From assembly GCA_026417375.1 (NCBI GenBank), contig JAOADJ010000058.1:1-32873 (forward strand): a stretch of 32,873 nucleotides of DNA, written 5' to 3'. The position numbers and the translations under genes are program-made. Below the pieces are notes generated by a model, which saw nothing but the letters and a program-made list of their open reading frames with translations, did not search any database and had not been told where the DNA came from. Below, one piece after another: positions 21,945 to 25,117 of this stretch (within the stretch, counting starts at the first letter, position 1; each line of letters begins with the position of its first letter). Source of the stretch: Melioribacteraceae bacterium. GTDB taxonomy: Bacteria; Bacteroidota; Ignavibacteria; Ignavibacteriales; Melioribacteraceae.

Positions 21945-23084
21945 GTGGCAGAAACAAAAGCAGCAAATAAAATTTTATTAGTAGAAGATGAATTTAACAT
22001 TGCAAAGCTTTTTAGTTATAACTTAACAAAAGCCGGCTATCAATGTGAAGTTGCAACCAATGGTCGCGAAGGTTATGAAAAAGCAATTTCTTTTCAACCT
22101 GATTTAATTATAAGCGATGTTATGATGCCCGAAGTTGATGGTTATGAGTTTAGAAAAATGCTTCTTCAAAATGATGAACTTAAAAAAATTCCATTTGTTT
22201 TTTTAACTGCCAAAGGGGAAGAGGATGATATTCTTCAGGGTTACGATTTAGAAATTGAGGATTATATTCTAAAAACCTCAAGCCCAAAAGTTGTTCTTGC
22301 AAAAGTTTCTGCTATTCTCAAAACATTAGAAAAAGAAAGATCAAAAGTTGTTGACGAAGTTTCTAAAGCTGCTGATTCAATGGGTGTGAAAGTTGTTCCT
22401 GAAGATTTTCCAATATTCGATGGATTTGAAATTAAACATTGGCATCAGCCACATAAAAATGTTCCCGGTGGAGATTTTATAGATTACATAAAAATTGATG
22501 ATGACAATATTGTAATTGTTCTTGGCGATACAATGGGAAAAAGATGGGGTGCGTGGTATTTTGCTGTTGCCTATGCGGGTTATGTTCGTAGTGCAACACG
22601 TTTTGTTCTTGAAGCTACAAAAGATTATAAACCCAGCACTATTCTTCAAAAAGTAAATGAATCTGTATTTAAAGATGAAAGAATTTCAGATGTGTTTATT
22701 ACTTTATCTATTGTTATTATAAACAAATCACAAAAAATTGCTCACTACTCCGGAGCTGGTGATTTACCTCTTTTTCTAAAATCAAAAAGTGAAGTTAATT
22801 CATTTATTTCAAATGGCTTGCTTTTAGGATTTAGTCAATCAGGAGAATATCAGGATCATGAATTAAATCTTCAAACAGGTGATGAAATATTTTTGGTAAC
22901 CGATGGCATTACCGAAGCAAGAAATTCAAATGGCGAAATGTTTCGGGAAGAAGGATTTATTGAATTCCTGAAAAATGTTTCTCAAAATCAAGATACTTTA
23001 GAAGAGCTGAAACTAAAAATGCAAGAGTTTACTTCCGGTAATTATGATGATGATGTTAGTGTTATAAAAATAAAAGTGATTTAA
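21945..23084 (+). CDS. Response regulator with PP2C/SpoIIE (RsbU-like) phosphatase domain
   Basis: This 379-residue protein starts with GTG at 21945, preceded by TTTGGAG. The N-terminal receiver has E14/D15, phospho-acceptor Asp58 (IISDVMMPE) and Thr in FLTAKG, though the conserved Lys-Pro appears as KTSSP. The C-terminal PPM-type phosphatase domain shows GGDFIDY (Asp177), LGDTMGK (Asp195), VTDGITEA and a terminal DDVSVIKI. Such proteins dephosphorylate STAS antagonists when their receiver is activated. The GKRWGAWYFA segment replaces the usual GKG..A pattern. It is the last gene of the operon. Confidence 0.9.
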   Translation: MAETKAANKILLVEDEFNIAKLFSYNLTKAGYQCEVATNGREGYEKAISFQPDLIISDVMMPEVDGYEFRKMLLQNDELKKIPFVFLTAKGEEDDILQGYDLEIEDYILKTSSPKVVLAKVSAILKTLEKERSKVVDEVSKAADSMGVKVVPEDFPIFDGFEIKHWHQPHKNVPGGDFIDYIKIDDDNIVIVLGDTMGKRWGAWYFAVAYAGYVRSATRFVLEATKDYKPSTILQKVNESVFKDERISDVFITLSIVIINKSQKIAHYSGAGDLPLFLKSKSEVNSFISNGLLLGFSQSGEYQDHELNLQTGDEIFLVTDGITEARNSNGEMFREEGFIEFLKNVSQNQDTLEELKLKMQEFTSGNYDDDVSVIKIKVI

Positions 23085-23093
23085 TTTTTTTAT

Positions 23094-23531
23094 TTATTGA
23101 GTTAATAATCTTGTAAAAGATAAAGAACCTAATTTCCAATTATTGTTTTCTTTAATATAAACCTCTGTAACAATAAAAGGATTTGTAACTTCCCTTCCTC
23201 CAACTTCTGCTAACAACGTTATTCAGTTTAATAATATTGCTGTGTTATCAATTAATTTAACTGAAACATTATGAATTTCTGTTTTTTTATACCAAATACC
23301 ACCGCTTTTAATAATATTAATTTCTTCTACTTTTCCCCAGCTACCACCCATATGAACAAATACAGATTTTTCATGAAATAATTTTTCAAGCTCTTCAATA
23401 TTTTTTTCAGCCATCCATTCCCATTTTAATTTTGAAAGATTTATAATTTCATCTTCGTTACTATTGTTTTGAGAGTATAAATAATTAAAAGTAAATGGTA
23501 TCATTAATAAAGCAAAAAAAATCTTTTTCAT
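23094..23531 (-). pseudogene. Exported NTF2-like (DUF4440) protein interrupted by in-frame TGA
   Basis: The frame opens at ATG 23529-23531 (AGGAATTAAT upstream) with a signal peptide (MKKIFFALLMIPFTFNYLYS). It has NTF2-like features (WEWMAEKNIEELEKLFHEKS, VHMGGSWGKVEEIN) and hits TGA at 23223-23225 after AILLN. Beyond it the same frame continues without any other interruption for 42 codons (ITLLAEVGGREV, TNPFIVTEVYIKEN, NNWKLGSLSFTRL) to TAA 23094-23096. This is exactly the C-terminal half expected of the fold. One nonsense mutation is the simplest reading. Readthrough is possible but unsupported, since tryptophan is coded by TGG elsewhere in the window. A truncated product of 102 residues would lack two or more sheet strands. 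Confidence 0.75.
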
Positions 23532-23590
23532 ATTAATTCCTAAGAATTATTTAAAGTCATTATAATTTTTTCAAAAAATATAAACGAAAT

Positions 23591-24544
23591 TCATTTTAAT
23601 TTTTTTCTGTAACTTTTTTTATCATTGCTCAACTTATTTAACCAAACTGCTGTTAACCAACCAAGAAATATCATTGATATAATGAAAAGTGAATAAGAAA
23701 CCTGCCAGGGCACACCTTGTGTCATCATACTAAATTCCGACATACCACCAATGCTTGCTATTAAATTTAATGGTAAAAATATTACGTTGATTACTGTAAG
23801 TTTTTTTAACAACATATTCATATTGTTGTTTATTAGGTTTCCTCTTGCATCCATTAATCCACCAAGTATAGTTGAATAAATCTCAGCTTGTTTTAAGCAT
23901 TGATTTCCTTCAATAATTAAATCGTCAAGCAATTCTATTTCATCAGTTGAGAAACCTAATTTCTGTGCATTGTTTTTTATTTTGATTAGCACTGTATTAT
24001 TTGCATTAATTGCATTGATATAATAAACAAGGCTTTCACTTAAGTTAAACATTTGAACTAAATATTTATTTTCAAGTGATATTGTAATTTTTTCCTGAAG
24101 TTCTTTTGACATCATATTAATTGCTTTAATGTGTTCAACATAATGTCTGATTGTATAAAATAATATTTTTAATAAATAATCAACTAAAGAATTAATTTTT
24201 TTATACTCTTTTCTATCGTATAAATCATATTCTTCATTCATTATTACAATTATTTTGTTGGTTGTAAGAAATATTCCAATAGATGAAACATTAAACTGAA
24301 GTTGTGTATCAAAAGAATAATTTTTTGGACATTTCCAAATTATGAAAGTATAATCTTTCTCAAACTCTACGCGTGAAATTTCATCGGGGTCAAGTGCTGA
24401 TGATAAAGCGTGTTCATCAAAATCTAAATTCTTTAATATGCTCTGTTTTTCTTTTTCATCCGGATTAATAAAAAAATCTATAAGATTGTTTTCATTTTCA
24501 GAAGGAACTATGGATTTATCAACAATATCAAACTTTTTATTCAT
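23591..24544 (-). CDS. CorA-like divalent-cation transporter with a GMS motif
   Basis: This 317-residue protein has a large N-terminal soluble region. Two C-terminal membrane helices follow (residues ~246-266 and ~282-304) and a basic tail (KKSYRKKLK). The CorA family's pore loop has a Gly-Met-Asn signature; here the equivalent position reads GGMSEFSMM (GMS, 267-269). CorA channels pass Mg2+, Co2+ or Ni2+ and work as pentamers. A ribosome-binding site (AAGGAGAAC) precedes ATG 24542-24544. The gene is monocistronic in the window and downstream of the broken NTF2-like gene on the same strand. Confidence 0.85.
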   Translation of the reverse strand: MNKKFDIVDKSIVPSENENNLIDFFINPDEKEKQSILKNLDFDEHALSSALDPDEISRVEFEKDYTFIIWKCPKNYSFDTQLQFNVSSIGIFLTTNKIIVIMNEEYDLYDRKEYKKINSLVDYLLKILFYTIRHYVEHIKAINMMSKELQEKITISLENKYLVQMFNLSESLVYYINAINANNTVLIKIKNNAQKLGFSTDEIELLDDLIIEGNQCLKQAEIYSTILGGLMDARGNLINNNMNMLLKKLTVINVIFLPLNLIASIGGMSEFSMMTQGVPWQVSYSLFIISMIFLGWLTAVWLNKLSNDKKSYRKKLK

Positions 24545-25117
24545 TTCAGTTCTCCTTCTTTAATGGTTTAAAATTTATTTGATTAATTATAATTAGCTTT
24601 GTTTTTAATTTGATATCATCTAATATGGATTACAAGAATAGAACATATTGATAACCAAAATTAATAAAACAATTTTTAATACATAAAACATCCTTATAAA
24701 TACATTTTATTTTTCTGCTGTTTTTGGTGTGTAATTATGTTTGATTAATACTTCCTGCAATGAAAACTATTTTTTTAATTATTCCCTAAACATGAATTGA
24801 GTTGGTAATTTTTTAAATATTGTTACAGAAGGAAATATAATTGAGAAAGAGAACAACAAAATATTTTTCCGCCACGATTTAGAAATCAAATAATTCGTAT
24901 ACAATATTTATTTTAAGTGTAAAATAACTCTAGTCGGTTAATGTTTAAACATAATACAATATAACAAGTAAAAATTGCAACCTAAATTATTAATAAAACT
25001 TATTAAGTAGATAAAAGCTTTTACAGTATAAAAATTTTACAATTTATTAAAATTAAATACAAACATTTTTATAGTTGAAGATTGGGTCTCAATTCAATCT
25101 GATATAAAAGTATCTAT
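24545..25117. other. Gene-free AT-rich stretch
   Basis: These 573 bases lie between the CorA-like gene and the ABC permease stop. No open frame of useful length with a start and ribosome-binding site, no strong hairpin and no known element was seen on either strand. The corA-like promoter must lie near its right-hand start, and the left end of the ABC operon's terminator presumably lies here. Confidence 0.5.

Follow-up and report, generated by a model that had tools for sequence, protein, structure and literature searches.

According to the available text of PMC7918605, in-frame stop codons are widespread in bacterial genes and usually persist only at the scale of population polymorphism; the paper also argues that many do not mark pseudogenes. 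In-frame UGA codons are also a feature of recoding systems, in which they are read as selenocysteine or tryptophan. For the latter, the available part of PMC13092985 names two routes, a tRNA-Trp(UCA) or a tRNA-Trp with a 4-bp anticodon stem. Among solved protein structures, 2r4i (CHU_1428 from Cytophaga hutchinsonii) exemplifies the DUF4440/SnoaL-like NTF2-like fold.

The gene described here lies in a window of 32,873 nucleotides, the whole stretch of DNA analyzed, from a Melioribacteraceae bacterium (contig JAOADJ010000058.1). Its read-through protein shares the fold of 2r4i; unlike 2r4i and the DUF4440 relatives, however, the window copy carries a stop at codon 103. An in-frame UGA is common to this gene and the recoding systems, but the window genome showed none of the recoding factors or signals sought. 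As far as the available text of PMC7918605 describes its nonsense alleles, the window gene resembles them in carrying a stop in a conserved gene, in a single genome and with an undecayed 3' region. Those stops were judged by persistence and dN/dS across strains, whereas the window case is known from one genome per species. The best reading of the locus is that it probably represents a recent private nonsense allele, a young pseudogene, in a non-essential gene.

A single TGA within a DUF4440 gene

The gene is located on the minus strand, which the first-pass annotation had left unstated, and occupies 23531..23094 with 145 codons as one frame. As that annotation had recognized, its sole interruption is a TGA (23223..23225, minus strand) at codon 103, and the rest of the frame is open. 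The first ORF (23531..23223) extends for 102 codons from an ATG, with residues 98-102 (AILLN) directly preceding the TGA. The segment encoding residues 1-102 (23226..23531, minus strand) begins with a hydrophobic N-terminus that by eye resembles a signal peptide, and the gene probably encodes a small secreted or exported protein. Downstream of the TGA, 42 further codons follow in the same frame with no frameshift needed (23222..23097, minus strand), again as first noted. They contain no ATG and are closed by a TAA (23094..23096, minus strand), within a few codons of which close relatives also end. The gene's upstream neighbor on the minus strand is CorA-like (23591..24544), and a response-regulator/SpoIIE-phosphatase gene (21945..23084, plus strand) converges on the 3' end with 9 bases between them. 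Scans of positions 22900-24800 gave promoter-like sites not above those of shuffled sequence and found no terminator.

The G+C content of the host genome is 28%, and by our own arithmetic from base composition the chance of a 42-codon open run is about 3%. At least 40 open codons followed the stop in 7 of the 55 TGA-ended gene-like ORFs, the window gene included, within 419,720 sampled bases. Taken alone, such a run would not be rare, and it is homology that decides the one-gene reading. The Pfam profile DUF4440 (PF14534) matched the first ORF alone at 39.8 bits over profile positions 9-73 of 107. The 42-codon remainder alone aligned with positions 81-107 below the cut-off (13.1 bits, E = 0.14), and the read-through protein reached 63.4 bits over positions 9-107. 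The gathering score of 25.2 bits was exceeded by both the first ORF and the read-through protein. Because the joint match completes the profile, the first ORF and the remainder were regarded as one gene, which bears out the earlier view that the TGA splits an NTF2-like gene. An NCBIfam search assigned no family to four proteins, the window's among them.

Predicted structure and the truncated product

A structure model of the read-through protein was built from a 38-row alignment comprising the window protein and 37 homologs, with a mean pLDDT of 89.1. The best match among solved folds was 2r4i, with TM-scores of 0.73-0.77 normalized by query length over its four chains; together with the DUF4440 match, this upholds the NTF2-like assignment made at first pass. 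A complete NTF2-like α+β fold was found in the predicted model of the read-through protein only. In this model, the stop at residue 103 cuts the strand formed by residues 97-110, and the strands 113-128 and 131-141 are lost. The codons after the stop (23097..23222) therefore encode what is left of the cut strand plus the two final β strands, as the first-pass annotation had supposed from the letters alone. Judging from the model, a 102-residue product without the last two sheet strands probably does not fold or work.

That the 102-residue product is nevertheless functional as such, or that two pieces are made separately and associate, is hardly credible. The first ORF does have a start codon and a likely signal peptide, and one homolog (L169, genome G135) is also without the last residues of the family, from about residue 118; against this, the cut falls within a core strand of the model, and the 3' piece, with no ATG, would be without a signal peptide. 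Homologs naturally ending at residue 102, which had been named as grounds for abandoning the split-gene proposal, were not encountered among the copies whose sequence was examined. The alignment reached residue 142 or beyond in 77 of 78 homologous loci (the window's own two excluded; L047 and L078 are the same gene), and the sole exception, L076, is itself frameshifted. In later match tables, partial matches ended early in G656 (residue 83) and in G1124 (residue 85, at a contig end).

The interrupted codon in homologs

To define the residue replaced by the stop, a counting alignment of 96 rows was drawn from 109 loci with a match at the stop position. Omitted before the count were the broken copies L043, L076 and L167, second copies of kept genes (L077, L078, L142, L145 and one further duplicate), and partial or long fused frames (L151, L158, L161, L163 and L169). 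In this alignment, the column contained a sense codon in all 95 other rows, with 53 Arg, 20 Asp, 15 Lys, four Asn, and one each of Ile, Thr and Gln; it was never a stop, and never Cys or Trp. The window thus carries a stop where its relatives have a sense codon, as expected of a nonsense allele. Among the omitted broken copies, L043 and L167 read Arg at this column. In the frame-broken L076, the tblastn frame shows a stop at the column, whereas the family-matching frame shows Asn.

Among the rows with a sense codon are Stygiobacter electus (L047; Melioribacteraceae, Ignavibacteriota according to NCBI), the same-genus genome G066 and the family member G037. The copy of the same-genus genome G065 is identical to that of S. 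electus. A literature search under this one name of the lineage found no paper naming Stygiobacter. The TGA allele was seen in one genome only, with one genome compared per species, and had no match in viral contigs.

Sequence conservation downstream of the stop

Of the strongly conserved columns, the window protein retained 33 of 34 ahead of the stop and 18 of 19 beyond it. No residue private to the window occurred in the 39 compared columns after the stop, against two in the 75 columns before. With the topology fixed, the terminal branch of the window amounted to 0.169 of a total tree length of 24.36 (0.7%) after the stop and to 0.287 of 22.68 (1.3%) before it. The tree came from a fast method without support values and groups the window and S. 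electus with L068, a copy from Alistipes, so that its finer branching is not trustworthy. The usual mark of a pseudogene is relaxed selection after the stop; the 39 columns tested show none, which agrees with a recent event. When neutral decay of the 39 codons was simulated, the probability of acquiring no new unique residue or stop fell from 0.13 (3% divergence) to 0.03 (5%) and 0.003 (8%). Since a clean 3' part becomes unlikely beyond about 5% neutral divergence, the stop would have to be young if the gene is dead. More generally, the unrelaxed 3' part leaves three options, namely a recent stop, an error or readthrough.

In the recent nonsense allele scenario, a nonsense mutation would have interrupted a small NTF2-like (DUF4440) gene in a Stygiobacter-like bacterium. 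Translation would end at the TGA and yield a 102-residue product without the last two sheet strands, which would probably fail to fold or work, and the downstream codons would still be intact because there has been too little time for decay. Three parts of this account are inferred: a genuine base at this position, efficient termination there and an inactive product.

An intact 3' part is equally expected from readthrough or from a base-calling or assembly error. The TGA could be a mistake in the consensus or the assembly, or the assembler could have chosen a minor strain variant; in either case the gene would be intact in the population. This explanation ranks second, ahead of functional readthrough, and is unlikely. 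The gene is otherwise faultless with an unrelaxed 3' part, and the genome exists as a 58-contig draft, both of which suit an error. No positive sign of one was seen, however. Within 419,720 bases, 37 long coding-like extensions past a stop were identified, the window gene being one, under a criterion of at least 90 codons before and at least 25 after the stop that would miss a split near the gene start. Inspection of the other 36 by eye (for 24 of them, of the first residues only) turned up no second candidate for a gene divided by a single stop; they resembled same-frame neighboring genes, short non-coding tails or spurious antisense ORFs. Single-base substitution errors are rare in short-read consensus sequences, which would count against an error if the assembly was made from short reads.

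Recoding and readthrough machinery

The genome was also searched for factors by which a UGA codon could be decoded. No selB match over the cut-off was found in any of the six genus genomes, the window's own included, two of the six being only 75-77% complete. The best selB score in its own genome was 191.1 bits against a cut-off of 242.25, and this match is probably elongation factor Tu, as its 401-residue frame indicates. None of the 25 tRNA-Sec matches listed for its own genome was over the cut-off. The 61 nt from the TGA onward folded no better than shuffled sequences (z = 0.37; 121 of 200 shuffles at least as good). Given these results and a stop column without Cys, selenocysteine incorporation was rejected; a structured readthrough signal was rejected on the folding result.

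TGA is a normal stop in the host genome. It ends 55 of 314 gene-like ORFs in the 419,720 sampled bases (window included). The 314 were selected on length and codon usage; a few of them are spurious antisense ORFs, at least two of which are among the 55, as is the window gene. RF2 is present, and all 40 tRNAs over the cut-off were read without finding the anticodon TCA, in a set that is incomplete, since Ala tRNAs and an Ile tRNA with anticodon GAT are missing from it. A suppressor tRNA may lie in the unassembled part of the genome. Genome-wide UGA reassignment was rejected in view of RF2, the wide use of TGA as a terminator and the anticodons of these 40 tRNAs. The single tRNA-Trp identified forms all five pairs of its anticodon stem, carries A9 and G24 (in our own numbering) and is without the readthrough features named in the available part of PMC13092985; an altered tRNA-Trp was rejected on these grounds.

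We give little chance to the idea that the TGA is read through often enough for a useful full-length protein, whether through misreading by a near-cognate tRNA or as a switch that keeps expression low. It would account for downstream codons conserved as in intact relatives, and the available text of PMC7918605 describes in-frame stops under purifying selection as widespread in bacteria, with lowered expression as their proposed effect. That paper's argument that many such stops do not mark pseudogenes is the fairest point against the pseudogene reading. The lack of selB and tRNA-Sec matches over the cut-offs, a column that is never Cys or Trp in 95 rows, the lack of a TCA anticodon among the 40 tRNAs, the ordinary tRNA-Trp and the unremarkable folding from the TGA onward all weigh against readthrough. 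Moreover, a stop at codon 103 was present in no other copy compared, so this is not a conserved site. The gene would gain importance only if a full-length protein were produced; it would then serve as a simple natural experiment on basal UGA readthrough in a lineage that has received little study.

Distribution and integrity of the gene family

The distribution of the gene is patchy. It was matched in four of 79 family genomes and in three of six genus genomes, the window's own included, though completeness is only 75-77% in two of the three genomes that lack it. No shared neighborhood was detected at S. electus, where among the ORFs of at least 90 codons in 12.3 kb (L047) only the gene itself matched a window protein. 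The window CorA gene had same-genus matches of 45-47% identity in three of the five other genomes, with none at E <= 1e-40 in G065 and G067. Our count over the match tables gave 176 distinct matched places (E <= 1e-15), five of them with in-frame stops. The other 171 were without one, so that the family is mostly kept intact where present, a point against the pseudogene reading. The patchiness, the absent shared neighborhood at L047 and the low-rate breakage together fit a dispensable gene.

The five stop-bearing places are the window (G000, TGA), G185 (TGA), G844 (two TGA), G687 (TAG) and G1059 (TAG). In the three other copies whose sequence was read, the stops fall at positions other than the window's, at codons 37 and 39 in G844, 37 in G185 and 9 in G687. 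Differing positions, with both TGA and TAG, are as would be expected of independent nonsense mutations. That the family instead puts up with leaky in-frame stops, or exploits them to dim expression, is very improbable; were it so, the window TGA, the TGA pair of G844 and the TAG copies of G687 and G1059 would mark genes still read through at a low level rather than dead ones.

A recent nonsense allele is favored because the 3' codons are conserved, the recoding factors sought are absent and other family copies are broken. Of the young pseudogene, assembly error and readthrough site that the first-pass annotation had left side by side, the first therefore fits best. As a pseudogene the window copy is ordinary, one more private nonsense allele, and a reminder that the 102-residue protein which automatic annotation would report here is in truth a fragment.

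Several individual copies deserve mention. In L043:6001-6432 (plus strand), two TGA codons two codons apart both stand at positions where relatives have Trp (KWxWM), and about 105 intact codons follow. The G844 copy (L182) has the same sequence, and G680, from the same genus, holds a family copy without a stop. The G185 copy (L167:1498-1824, minus strand) has a frameshift followed directly by a TGA at the first of the KWxWM Trp positions. A single in-frame TAG lies within the signal-peptide region of the G687 copy (L207:1501-1926, plus strand), and the match table shows one in-frame TAG in G1059 (C13:372657-373043). Several frameshifts break the copy of Chitinophaga sp. YR627 (L076:6001-6384, plus strand), and a second G195 copy is split over two frames. 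The G135 copy (L169:1504-1794, minus strand) departs from the family sequence after about residue 117, with a stop soon after. Furthermore, two diverged tandem copies were found in several genomes, among them L182 (G844), G156 (C4:611404-612299) and G658 (C1:961542-962450), and in these three the matches lie 63-85 bases apart.
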